From Cohaesibacter marisflavi (GTDB taxonomy: Bacteria; Pseudomonadota; Alphaproteobacteria; Rhizobiales; Cohaesibacteraceae), in contig NZ_FOVR01000001.1 in NCBI RefSeq assembly GCF_900115225.1, forward strand, positions 310,001-374,000: a DNA stretch of 64,000 nt, given 5' to 3'. Both the position numbers and the translations under genes were made by a program. A model generated the notes under the pieces. The model worked only from the letters and a program-made list of their open reading frames with translations. It was not told where the DNA came from and made no database searches. Of the stretch, positions 10,071 to 42,847 are shown one piece after another; position 1 is the first letter of the stretch; each line of letters opens with the position of its first letter.

Positions 10071-11108
10071 TTACTCTGGCTGACAGATCTCGCCGCCAAG
10101 AACGGCCTTCATCGTCCTGATCAGCAGGCCGATGATCACCAGGACCAGAAGAGCGAAGAGCCCATATCCGATCGTCTCGTGGATGCCCGACTGGATCTTC
10201 TCCGCATAGAGCAGAGTGGAAATAGTCAACGCCGCCAGCGGGAAGCTGTAAGCCCACCACGACATGGCAAAGGAGATGCGCGACAGCTTTGGCACTTGAA
10301 GCAGGATGATCAGGAAGAAAAACACGCCGGTGTAATAGAGAATCCGCGAGAAGGGATCGATCCCGCCTGTCATGGTGACAAAGGAAACGAATCCCACTGC
10401 AGGAGGGGCAATGAGGATCATCAGCGTCGGCAACAGGCGCTCTGGCAATGGATTGTGGAAAACCAGACGGTTGAAAACCAGCGTCAAAAGCACGACCCAG
10501 AAGAGGATGCCGATCGCAAAGAAGAACCAGGAAATCTCGGTATATCCCAGCCGACTGCCAGCAATCGGAACGAGGATATTGCCCACCACAGGTATGAACC
10601 AGGCAGGATTGAGATGCATCAATTCAAAGTTCCTGTGGCCGATCCAGGTGGAGAGAACGGCCAGCGTTCCAATTAAATGTAGCGCGCTGCCCACGGCCCA
10701 GAAACCGAAAGATAAAGCATGAGAAAAAGGGCCGAACGCGGTGCCCATCAGAATCAGCCCGATAGAAGCTGCAGGGAAGAAGCATAGTCGCACCGGATGA
10801 TGCCATTCCCACGAAATGGCTGCAGGATACTTGATTGCCTTGAGCAGATAGATCCCGAGTAGTATGGCAAAGACGATGCCTGTAAAAGTCAATAAATACA
10901 GACTGTTGCTGTGTTCCATGCCAAAGCTTTTCTCAAGTCTCTCTGTCGCGAGGGTAAAGCCGGCCAGCCCCATCACCATAGCAAAGAAGGCATTTGGAAA
11001 ATGCTCCAGCCGAGATTCCGCTGTTGCTACTGAGGGACCCGATGCGCCGCTAAGGGCCGCTGCGGCAGAGGAGGAGGCCGCCTCCTGAGGGTTGTTTGTC
11101 TGCGACAT
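10071..11108 (-). CDS. TDT/SLAC1 family anion channel or transporter
   Basis: This is an inner-membrane protein of the tellurite-resistance/dicarboxylate transporter (TehA/SLAC1) family, 345 residues. An alanine/serine-rich cytosolic N-terminus (about 35 residues) precedes the family entry motif LEHFPNAFFAMVMGLAGF, followed by about ten membrane helices. Such proteins pass anions or dicarboxylates; the substrate here is unknown. The gene is divergent from an Rrf2 Fe-S regulator. E. coli tehAB is an NsrR target, so control by the neighbouring regulator is plausible but inferred. The ATG has GGAGAGACAGA upstream. Confidence 0.88.
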   Translation of the reverse strand: MSQTNNPQEAASSSAAAALSGASGPSVATAESRLEHFPNAFFAMVMGLAGFTLATERLEKSFGMEHSNSLYLLTFTGIVFAILLGIYLLKAIKYPAAISWEWHHPVRLCFFPAASIGLILMGTAFGPFSHALSFGFWAVGSALHLIGTLAVLSTWIGHRNFELMHLNPAWFIPVVGNILVPIAGSRLGYTEISWFFFAIGILFWVVLLTLVFNRLVFHNPLPERLLPTLMILIAPPAVGFVSFVTMTGGIDPFSRILYYTGVFFFLIILLQVPKLSRISFAMSWWAYSFPLAALTISTLLYAEKIQSGIHETIGYGLFALLVLVIIGLLIRTMKAVLGGEICQPE

Positions 11109-11189
11109 TCTGTCTCTCCATTTATCCGCATAAATTTAAACAAGTAAACTTGATACTTCTTATCACAAGTGTTACAACATAACCAACAT

Positions 11190-11219
11190 TTGATTGTAGG
11201 GAAACAACAAACTTATATT
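11190..11219 (+). promoter_or_regulatory. Promoter of a candidate small RNA
   Basis: TTGATT (11190-11195), 18 bases, then TATATT (11214-11219). Transcription would start near 11226, pointing away from the transporter gene and towards a strong terminator at 11288-11348 that no protein gene explains. Confidence 0.5.
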
Positions 11220-11225
11220 TATTCG

Positions 11226-11348
11226 AAAGTATGAAGGTTTAAGAGGACGTTTCAGCATTCATCGCTTTCCGACGAGGAGAGTCGATGGCACTGCTGCCTG
11301 TATCGATCACCCCGGTCTCTAATCGATATGGGCAGCAGTGCATTTTTT
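11226..11348 (+). ncRNA. Candidate small RNA with strong terminator
   Basis: This transcript of about 120 bases is proposed from a promoter-like pair ending at 11219 and a powerful intrinsic terminator. It lies in the gap between two divergent genes, where neither protein gene can use a plus-strand terminator. It contains no open frame with a ribosome-binding site. A GA-rich single-stranded stretch (GACGAGGAGAG, about 11270-11280) precedes the terminator stem. The family is not recognised. It could also be a 5' leader or attenuator of the Rrf2 gene, with the terminator read through under some condition. Confidence 0.5.
11288..11348 (+). terminator. Strong intrinsic terminator or attenuator
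   Basis: Twenty-base arms (11288-11307 and 11322-11341) pair along their full length with two G-U wobbles, around a 14-base loop, then A and six Ts (11343-11348). There is no T run on the other strand, so it works rightward only. Confidence 0.85.
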
Positions 11349-11398
11349 ATGTTCGATTGAATATGAATCTGTCATTGTTGGCTATGCGACCCAAGATG

Positions 11399-11414
11399 CT
11401 ATACTAAGGTATAG
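11399..11414. promoter_or_regulatory. Palindrome upstream of the Rrf2 gene
   Basis: CTATAC and GTATAG flank TAAG, about 80 bases before the regulator start. AAGATG lies immediately upstream (11393-11398), which resembles the half-site of NsrR operators. An autoregulatory operator is possible. Confidence 0.4.
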
Positions 11415-11494
11415 AGTCCGTTGGGGGCGTCGGTATTTGCGATTCTAGATCGCAACGGCGGCTCTGGTTTATTTAGCCAAGGTTTGGAGGTTTC

Positions 11495-11974
11495 ATGCGT
11501 CTTACTCAGCATTCCAACTATGCAATGCGCCTGCTTATGTACTGCGCTCTCAAGCCTGAGCAGACCGTACGTTTGGCTGAGATCGCCGAAGCCTATGACA
11601 TCTCCGGTCATCATCTGAATAAAATCGCCCAGCGATTGGTTCATATCGGCGCCATTCATGCCATTCGGGGCCGGAATGGCGGCATTCGTCTGGCCAAAGA
11701 CCCTAAGGACATCAATGTTGGTGAGATCATCCGGCAAACCGAAGAGAATATGCTCATTGTCGAGTGCTTCTCGGAGGAGAGCAATACCTGCCCGCTGATC
11801 TCCGAATGTAAATTCCGCACCTTGCTGCAGAATGCTCTGGAGGCTTTCTTGAAGGTTCTGGATTCGCAGACACTCGCAGACATGGTCGCTCAACCCGATT
11901 GTCTCAAGCCGCTTTTGGGTATGGCTGAGCAGATTGGCGGTCTTGGTCAGATGCACCGACCCGACTGCGCGTGA
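11495..11974 (+). CDS. Rrf2-family Fe-S cluster transcriptional regulator (NsrR/RirA type)
   Basis: This is a dimeric winged-helix repressor of 159 residues that likely binds an Fe-S cluster. The N-terminal HTH (MRLTQHSNYAMRLLMYCA to about residue 66) includes the HLNKIAQRL recognition helix and RGRNGGIRLA wing. Cluster ligands C91, C99 and C105 lie in ECFSEESNTCPLISEC. Their spacing equals that of rhizobial RirA, whereas the HTH and the segment FLKVLDSQTLADMV look more like the nitric-oxide sensor NsrR. I therefore leave the symbol open. It is divergent from the TDT transporter. The ATG has TTTGGAGG seven bases upstream. The role as NO or iron sensor is inference. Confidence 0.88.
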   Translation: MRLTQHSNYAMRLLMYCALKPEQTVRLAEIAEAYDISGHHLNKIAQRLVHIGAIHAIRGRNGGIRLAKDPKDINVGEIIRQTEENMLIVECFSEESNTCPLISECKFRTLLQNALEAFLKVLDSQTLADMVAQPDCLKPLLGMAEQIGGLGQMHRPDCA

Positions 11975-41302: not shown

Positions 41303-41670
41303 TCACGATTGCGTGAGGTTAAGAATGGAAAAGGCCCGCTTTTGACTGTTTTTAGCGAAATTTTGCAGCATTCAGTTGTTTTGCATGGAGTGAATAAGTC
41401 GCTAGAAATAGTTTTGCGAGCTCGCCCTTTGGTTTTAAATATATGTGAACGTTACAGCTATATAATACTATCCATAGGTCTTGCTCTAGATAAAAATAGT
41501 ATCACATATATTTGTTTTGAATATGTTTGAATTCAGGGATGTTATAGCTTCTCTCGGACATATACTTGGCAACAAATCCATAAAAACAAGGCCCATTGAA
41601 CGCGATAAGATTTGTGGTATTTAAAATATCGCAAATTTTGTATATTATAATATTCTGAAGGAGACCGGAC
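41303..41670. other. AT-rich intergenic region
   Basis: About 370 bases, clearly richer in A and T than the flanking genes. A 73-codon frame at 41309 lacks a ribosome-binding site and is not called. The promoter of the CelD-like gene is expected here. Confidence 0.4.
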
Positions 41671-42771
41671 GTGCCTTTCAGCGAAAACTACGAAATCGAA
41701 ACTCATACAGAGTTTGATTTCGAAGGAGAAGACTATTGCTCTCTTTTTGGGGCAAGCAACGCCACAGTCTTTCAGAACCCGCAATGGCTGGCGTTGCTTT
41801 ACGGACGCTTGGTTCCCCACTCAGGGGCCAGGCCACTGATCATATCTGCAAGGAGAAAAGACACAGGCCAGCTTTGTCTGCTCTTGCCGCTGTTGCACAC
41901 TTCCTATCTCGGGTTGGCATGTGTTGAGCCTGCTGATTGCGGGACCGCTGACTATAACGCTGTTGTCTATGATCCTGCCTTCGAAGAAGAGCTCTTGAGC
42001 GATGGAAAGATCAGCAAGGTTATTGTGTCTTTGCTGAAGCCATGCCATTTGATCCTCTTTCGAAAGATGCAAGGCGACAGCAAGATGCTCGCTCATCTGC
42101 TGGGCGAGGTGATTGTGGGTGACATGACCTCATCTGGCCATGACATGCCAATCTGGGCACCTTACGAGAAATGGCGAACAGAAATTCTCTCCAATAAGCT
42201 CAGGACCGGACTGCGTCGCAAACACAGAAAGCTCGTCGCAATCGGAGAGGTTTCACTCAGGATCTGCAAAGAAGAAGACGACATCAAGGCTGTTATGAAG
42301 GCGTTGCAGGATCAACGCCGAGATCGCTATTCTGATGATCTGTTTTTGGAAGACAGTTATTTTGAATTCTACAGCGCAGTTGCGCTGGAGGGCGTCGAAA
42401 CCGGATTATCCGAGCTTTCAGCGCTCTATGTGGGTGATGACATCATCGGCATCGAACTCGGCTTTATTCATGATCAATGCTATCATTTCATTCTCTCTGG
42501 CATGCAGGGAGGAGACTATTACAAAATGTCTCCTGGGCTGCAACTGATTGACTATATTCTTGACCATCGCGTCGCGTTGGGAGACACCCGTATCGATTTC
42601 ACGATCGGGGATGAAGAATATAAAAGCAGTTTTGGCGCCAAGCCGACAAGATTGCGCTTGATGGCAAGGCCAATGACGCTGCTTGGACGTCTTGCTTTGA
42701 AAACCTATATGCAGGGTGGACCGGTCAAGGACTTCGCCAAGCGCCTGGTTGCCATGGCCAGAAAAAAATAG
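41671..42771 (+). CDS. GNAT-family (BioF2/CelD-like) acetyltransferase
   Basis: The 366-residue protein starts at GTG 41671 with GAAGGAG six bases upstream. The N-terminal half resembles the first GNAT-like domain of CelD/FemAB-type proteins (VFQNPQWLALLYGRLVPHSGARPLIISA). The C-terminal half is the PF13480 acetyltransferase domain (LRRKHRKLVAIGEVSLRICKEE, ELSALYVGDDIIGIELGFIHDQCYHFILSG, PGLQLIDYILDHRVALGDTRIDFTIGDEEYKSSFG). Such enzymes often modify exopolysaccharides or peptides. It follows an AT-rich stretch and is monocistronic. Confidence 0.82.
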   Translation: MPFSENYEIETHTEFDFEGEDYCSLFGASNATVFQNPQWLALLYGRLVPHSGARPLIISARRKDTGQLCLLLPLLHTSYLGLACVEPADCGTADYNAVVYDPAFEEELLSDGKISKVIVSLLKPCHLILFRKMQGDSKMLAHLLGEVIVGDMTSSGHDMPIWAPYEKWRTEILSNKLRTGLRRKHRKLVAIGEVSLRICKEEDDIKAVMKALQDQRRDRYSDDLFLEDSYFEFYSAVALEGVETGLSELSALYVGDDIIGIELGFIHDQCYHFILSGMQGGDYYKMSPGLQLIDYILDHRVALGDTRIDFTIGDEEYKSSFGAKPTRLRLMARPMTLLGRLALKTYMQGGPVKDFAKRLVAMARKK

Positions 42772-42806: not shown

Positions 42807-42847
42807 AAAAAAGACCGCCTGACAGAGATCTGCAGGCGGTCTTTTTT
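42807..42847. terminator. Bidirectional intrinsic terminator
   Basis: AAAAAAGACCGCCTG (42807-42821) pairs perfectly with CAGGCGGTCTTTTTT (42833-42847). It separates the convergent CelD-like and oligopeptidase genes. Confidence 0.95.

Follow-up and report, generated by a model that had tools for sequence, protein, structure and literature searches.

In Sinorhizobium meliloti, the RNA called alpha-r14 or NfeR1 has stems that vary in sequence and an unpaired loop motif that remains constant, and this loop pairs with translation starts, according to the parts of PMC7143759 and PMC10746234 that describe it. Here we consider an element in the gap between a transporter gene and an Rrf2-family regulator gene in a 64,000-nucleotide stretch of the Cohaesibacter marisflavi genome, which we refer to as the window. 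As far as the descriptions in PMC7143759 and PMC10746234 go, this element resembles alpha-r14 as a predicted short alphaproteobacterial RNA with variable stems and a constant unpaired loop motif. It differs in that alpha-r14 is described as having three hairpins, each with CCUCCUCCC, whereas the Cohaesibacter element has two hairpins and one constant loop, ACCCCGGUCUCUA. Furthermore, NfeR1 is described from six locus copies in S. meliloti, as compared with one per Cohaesibacter genome. Membership in alpha-r14 was rejected since the hairpin number and the motif differ and no Rfam match was obtained.

AbcR1 and AbcR2 are also presented in the relevant part of PMC7143759 as intergenic and short, with a CU-rich unpaired motif that is thought to meet ribosome-binding sites. 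The Cohaesibacter element is likewise intergenic and short with a CU-rich unpaired motif, whereas the AbcR RNAs, in the same account, have three stem loops with two such motifs, a different sequence, and genes arranged in tandem next to lsrB. No AbcR match at the gathering score of Rfam was obtained for the Cohaesibacter element.

Another relevant comparison is with ribosome- or terminator-based attenuators in the leaders of regulator genes, where a terminator hairpin is located upstream on the same strand and is itself preceded by a small in-frame start. The terminator hairpin in Cohaesibacter is similarly placed, upstream of the regulator gene rrf2 on the same strand and with an in-frame start ahead. 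In the window and the eight relatives nearest to it, the element differs from such attenuators by a promoter-like site past the terminator; further differences are the lack of a conserved alternative fold, as judged by eye, and a peptide that is not kept. Our analysis suggests that the Cohaesibacter gap very probably encodes a small folded RNA, and that the element most likely belongs to a new genus-level family of small RNAs that end at a terminator.

Gene Neighborhood and Fold of the Gap

The two genes that flank the gap are divergent, in agreement with an earlier reading of the sequence alone. On the reverse strand, a SLAC1/TDT-family transporter gene (10071-11108) scored above the cut-off of the Pfam SLAC1 model and below those of the NCBIfam TDT and TehA models. 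On the forward strand, rrf2 (11495-11974) codes for an Rrf2-family regulator with cysteines in the pattern C-X7-C-X5-C, for which the Rrf2 superfamily cut-off was passed. This regulator is RirA/NsrR-like, the best narrower NCBIfam names being RirA and NsrR, both below cut-off, and the five nearest named records in the Rrf2 search are from Cohaesibacter, with 72-87% identity. An assignment as NsrR was rejected, the NCBIfam scores being under the RirA and NsrR cut-offs, and the subfamily was left unassigned.

Close to the start of the transporter gene, we identified an imperfect palindrome, AAGTATCAAGTTTACTTG (11141-11158, reverse strand), which is a candidate operator and is present in recognisable form in all 18 gaps examined from the genus. 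It is the sole exact site in its own genome, where six more were found at two mismatches; the reversed control gave nine. The palindrome does not fit the NsrR consensus, in the form in which that consensus is quoted in PMC1274295, which also spoke against naming the regulator NsrR. Perhaps the palindrome is the operator of a local Rrf2 regulator.

Two hairpins were identified on the forward strand of the gap. Hairpin 2, the terminator stem (11288-11341), has arms at 11288-11307 and 11322-11341 that form 20 pairs, two of which are G-U, around a loop of 14 bases, and it is followed after a single A by TTTTTT (11343-11348). It was this rightward hairpin of 20 pairs with six Ts that had been recognised from the sequence alone; it was placed 70 bases past the proposed -10 element, and the measured spacing is 68 bases. 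Hairpin 1 (11260-11287; CATCGCTTTCC / GACGA / GGAGAG-T-CGATG) lies upstream of the terminator stem and is, together with the genus-wide conservation described below, new to the present analysis. Its 3' arm contains a Shine-Dalgarno-like GAGGAG and an ATG (11285-11287), which are mostly paired.

The predicted fold of 11190-11350 has an energy of -58 kcal/mol, as compared with a mean of -36.2 for shuffled sequences (z -5.8), and none of 200 shuffles was as good. A terminator scan called no terminator at hairpin 2 because the scan allows loops of at most 8 bases. A second scan of the window, covering either strand, looked for uninterrupted stems of 14 or more pairs that have a T-rich tail and a loop of at most 20 bases; it returned seven rows (one hairpin counted twice, once per strand), with hairpin 2 as the longest. 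Elsewhere in the window, a symmetric 15-pair hairpin with an A run on its 5' side and a T run on its 3' side is located between convergent open frames (42807-42847) and looks like a bidirectional terminator.

Distribution Across Genomes

A BLAST search with 151 bases matched the region in 15 of the 18 genomes of the genus, the genome of the window included. A covariance model was built from 17 sequences (alignment A1), from which locus L019 of genome G015 was omitted because its loop differs. With this model, all 18 genomes gave one strong match each, including G015 despite its absence from the model (44 bits, E 5.6e-6). Conservation of the stem in close relatives, on which the sequence-only reading had made its proposal depend, is thus observed in every genome of the genus that was searched. 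The weak extra matches were to that stem read on its other strand, except for one at E 0.4 in G007. The flanking genes were mapped on 21 loci, which are 18 distinct loci once three duplicates are dropped, and the element is situated between divergent transporter and Rrf2 genes in all 18 distinct gaps.

Beyond the genus, searches with stricter filters, by which weak matches can be lost, gave 11 matches among 297 genomes drawn from the order, all in Cohaesibacter and none in the 286 others, and under the same kind of filters only the genome of the window was matched among 385 drawn from the class, with none in the remaining 384. When the filters were relaxed for 26 genomes from other genera, a single match was obtained at E 0.39 in G058, which was taken as chance upon inspection of 141 bases. 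The draws of genomes partly overlap. An exact match of 22 bases in G060 was also dismissed as chance since it is located inside an open frame of 386 codons. In the genome of the window, TTCGAAANTATGAA-like sites numbered eight, six of them with one mismatch, as compared with five in the reversed control; the only other exact one is located within an open frame of 210 codons and was rejected. The pairing of the two flanking genes was examined outside the genus at loci L022-L055 and L114-L123 around relatives of the Rrf2 gene, where no TDT match was found with E up to 1e-3 within a reach of at most 1.5-3 kb on each side.

With Rfam 15 at the gathering scores, only two tRNAs were identified in the whole window, and the loci of six relatives gave no match. 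A search of 10900-11600 with E up to 10 produced seven rows. Apart from a single mycobacterial small RNA, they belonged to microRNA, snoRNA and lncRNA entries, and every one was rejected as being far below its gathering score. In the literature searched, we found no publication on a small RNA in Cohaesibacter and no prior description of this element. A search on NsrR, tehA and small RNA led to work on stress in E. coli, and one by the letters of the loop returned work with unrelated titles.

Many small RNA families in Sinorhizobium are limited to a genus or a family, and their neighbours are often kept, according to the portion of PMC3927594 that treats them. Because these families are similarly restricted, the genus-limited distribution seen here is ordinary, at least by the part of PMC3927594 on which this comparison draws. 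The element very probably represents a new family of an ordinary kind.

Covariation, Strand and the Constant Loop

The covariation test covered 16 distinct rows, 447 cells and 28 pairs, with 500 shuffles and slid-partner controls; it is biased towards the tested structure since this was predicted from the same alignment. Standard pairs made up 97.5% of the 447 cells as compared with 88.9% in the shuffles. Pairs changed on both sides amounted to 14 of 28 (8.3 in the shuffles) and doubly changed cells to 51 (18.7 in the shuffles), values that were reached by none of the 500 shuffles in either case. When the partners were slid, the paired share dropped to 31-54%. The number of further pair types did not separate the alignment from the shuffles (31 versus 30.1).

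Most of this signal is located in hairpin 2, where 98.6% of the cells of 18 modelled pairs are paired and 13 pairs are doubly changed. The independent changes are fewer than the cells because L001-L009, which are the window and its eight nearest relatives and make up nine of the 18 genomes, share a nearly identical hairpin 2. In hairpin 1, 95.6% of the cells of 10 pairs are paired across the 16 distinct rows, with five pairs invariant; as only one pair is doubly changed, the support for this hairpin comes mainly from sequence conservation.

Of the 447 cells, 57 are G-U and two are A-C. If the alignment is read as the opposite strand, by which G-U becomes A-C, the paired cells fall from 436 to 381 of 447, a comparison that somewhat favours the rightward strand since the consensus was folded on it. 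Because G-U outnumber A-C cells to this extent, selection appears to act on a rightward RNA. The length and near-perfection of the inverted repeat could also suggest a DNA element that makes no RNA, such as a protein-binding inverted repeat or a mobile repeat. We consider this highly improbable given the ratio of G-U to A-C cells, the single strong place per genome, and the lack of any blastn match with E up to 1 in plasmid and phage collections.

The apical loop of hairpin 2, CACCCCGGTCTCTA (11308-11321, forward strand), is the likeliest pairing site. Of the 18 genomes, 17 carry its core CCGGTCTCT and 15 carry the longer form ACCCCGGTCTCTA; the exceptions are L019 of G015, which has CACCCCAGTGTTTT, and L014 and L015, which differ outside the core. 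The loop core has stayed constant within a stem that paired changes have rebuilt.

The T run is more variable. It contains six Ts in nine of the 17 aligned sequences, five in L014, four in L011 and at most three in the other six (L010, L012, L013, L015, L020 and L021), among which the tails of L010 and L013 are still T-rich, with six Ts among the first 8-9 bases. By inspection, the tail of L019 is TTTTT. The stem is thus better conserved than the terminator tail. In the window, where stem and T run are both good, one explanation would be a plain terminator that protects rrf2 against stray rightward transcription from the promoter of the divergent transporter. Such a role is quite improbable in our estimation, since it leaves unexplained hairpin 1, the constant loop and the retention of the stem despite the decay of the T run.

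Promoter-Like Sites and a Possible Leader of the Regulator Gene

The sequence-only reading had placed a promoter at TTGATT-18-TATATT (11190-11219, forward strand), with TTGATT at 11190-11195 and TATATT at 11214-11219, and had suggested, as one of two possibilities, a transcript of about 120 bases. The two boxes exist, although they are weak, and sites of this type occurred twice as compared with 0.8 expected from shuffles of 10900-11700 and 1.1 from shuffles of 11100-11500. The sequence at the -10 position drifts and is not conserved when the window is compared with the eight relatives nearest to it (TATATT, TAAATT, TAATTT, TAGATT, TCATTT, TGGATA, TAGATA, TTTGTA and TTTGTA); the remaining nine gaps have no anchor at that place. 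We found support neither for this exact promoter nor for the proposed transcript length.

A candidate for a promoter or control site of the RNA is the conserved block TTCGAAAGTATGAA (11222-11235, forward strand). Blocks like TTCGAAAnTATGAA, with TTCGAA or TTTGAA followed by eight looser bases, are located 81-90 bases 5' of the loop core in 13 of the 18 gaps, and about 30-40 bases 5' of hairpin 1. L006 has a degenerate form of the block, and the gaps of L010, L013, L020 and L021 yielded none.

On the 3' side of the terminator, we observed a promoter-like site, TTGGCT-16-TATACT (11378-11405), which overlaps with the palindrome CTATAC-TAAG-GTATAG (11399-11414), together spanning 11378-11414 on the forward strand. 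The motif TATACT-N2-4-GTATA is situated at +88 from the loop core in nine of nine sequences from L001-L009, whereas a search of the remaining nine gaps did not find it. The site is likely to be a separate rrf2 promoter, and the palindrome over its -10-like part may perhaps serve in self-regulation of rrf2.

These sites are relevant for the hypothesis that both hairpins belong to the 5' region of the regulator mRNA and act as an attenuator that sets the read-through into rrf2, whether or not a short RNA is also released. In each of the 18 gaps the element indeed precedes rrf2 and shares its strand, the stem is kept better than the T run, and the downstream palindrome was not found in half of the gaps. 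In L020 and L021, moreover, the T run is poor and the 93 bases from hairpin 2 to rrf2 contain no obvious promoter by eye. Against a leader speak the promoter-like site and palindrome between the terminator and rrf2 in L001-L009, the lack upon inspection of a conserved alternative pairing between hairpin 1 and the loop, and an upstream stretch that differs between lineages, with no conserved sensor domain. We regard a leader function as rather unlikely overall, though it is the strongest of the alternatives, and it retains some probability because six of the 17 sequences have only a short T run.

Two readings had been offered from the sequence alone, an independent transcript or a long rrf2 leader. 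Covariation and the G-U asymmetry strongly support a conserved structured RNA on the forward strand. For the window and the eight relatives nearest to it, the promoter-like site of rrf2 past the terminator favours a separate small RNA, and the leader has its best case in L020 and L021.

A Possible Reading Frame Starting in Hairpin 1

In all 18 gaps, a start codon (16 ATG, 2 GTG) is located just 3' of a GGAG-like site and is in frame with the codons of the loop, which would read PVS or PVF. The distances from start to loop are 27, 24 and 21 bases, every one a multiple of three. It could therefore be imagined that the GAGGAG and the ATG or GTG in hairpin 1 open a short frame through hairpin 2, such that ribosomes melt the terminator, and even that the RNA has a dual function. 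The sequence of L019 fits this idea in part, since two of its altered loop codons, CCA and GTG, are silent changes; the third, TTT, is not.

Several features argue against such translational gating. The end of the candidate peptide is not kept, its length being 13 to 69 residues with some frames running to the end of the gap, and the middle of the peptide is scrambled in L015. The variable columns in L001-L009 are spread as 5, 6 and 7 over the three codon positions, and in 17 of the 18 the loop codons CCG GTC TCT show no variation at their third positions. The frame in L020 and L021 depends on an assumed GTG, since their ATG is out of frame. Furthermore, pairing within hairpin 1 would also explain the letters of the start and the Shine-Dalgarno-like site. 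Because the third positions in the loop are fixed and the peptide end is not kept, the constraint seems to be mainly on the RNA. We hold translational gating to be improbable, and keep a small reserve for a translated leader.

A related hypothesis couples a switch in cis to a small RNA acting in trans. Here, hairpin 1 would hide the ribosome-binding site and start; if opened, a ribosome would pass through hairpin 2 and transcription would continue into the Fe-S regulator gene, and if closed, a stable small RNA would result, the loop of which acts elsewhere. We give this possibility little credence, but if true, a single element would join a cis switch and a trans-acting small RNA at an Rrf2 locus.

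Search for Targets of the Loop

The function that we favour, by a modest lead over all other readings together, is that of a rightward small RNA that would act in trans through its constant loop on the translation starts of one or more mRNAs. We picture that the gap is transcribed rightward from a short start region through hairpin 1 and hairpin 2 to an end near 11348, which would give a length of about 100-125 bases if the start is near the TTCGAA block. The tall and freely changing stem of hairpin 2 would serve to present the near-constant loop ACCCCGGUCUCUA, which may then pair with the translation starts of its target or targets. Pairing by the loop is, we infer, the leading candidate for how the RNA functions.

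Across the 18 genomes, the loop core has an exact complement of 11 bases at 53 places, of which 16 are the element itself, as compared with 55 for the reversed control. A second exact AGAGACCGGGG was observed in each of G001 and G004, both about 13.9 kb from the element. The start-like pattern GAGACCGG-N0-6-RTG was above the reversed control in 16 of the 18 genomes, among the matches listed, an excess that could hint at pairing or simply at base composition.

We also scored the pairing of the loop against 40 gene starts chosen mechanically within the window. The start of the transporter gene itself ranked 22 of 40, with six pairs and a score of -9.1. The best score, -19.1, was obtained for a gene with a GNAT domain (Pfam) and a GTG start at 41671, the start region of which is GGAGACCGGACGTG, with AAGGAGACCGGACGTG as the complement to the RNA loop. 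Of 500 permuted loops, 34 scored as well as the real loop against these 40 starts, and because of this we claim no target.

The complement at the start of the GNAT-domain gene is exact in six of the eight closest orthologues, the gene of the window counted, whereas it is changed in L143 and broken in L141. Weaker pairing is seen in L147 and L148, the two orthologues that come next. In the genome of L141 (G003), the RNA loop itself is intact. The RNA is also present in G011, where no close orthologue of the GNAT-domain gene was found. Upstream of this gene in the window, a 17-pair AT-rich hairpin with a T-rich tail is located at 41605-41675. Neither the complement search in the 18 genomes nor the 40 starts in the window separated any target of the loop from chance.

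Implications for Cohaesibacter

Our findings describe a well-supported RNA family without an Rfam match, which is present as a single copy at one locus in all 18 Cohaesibacter genomes analysed, beside a regulator of the Fe-S type and a transporter. The element would provide an example of a small RNA that is confined to one genus and one locus, in which the stem has been rewritten and the loop has been held. As such, it offers a precise entry point for studies of RNA regulation in Cohaesibacter.
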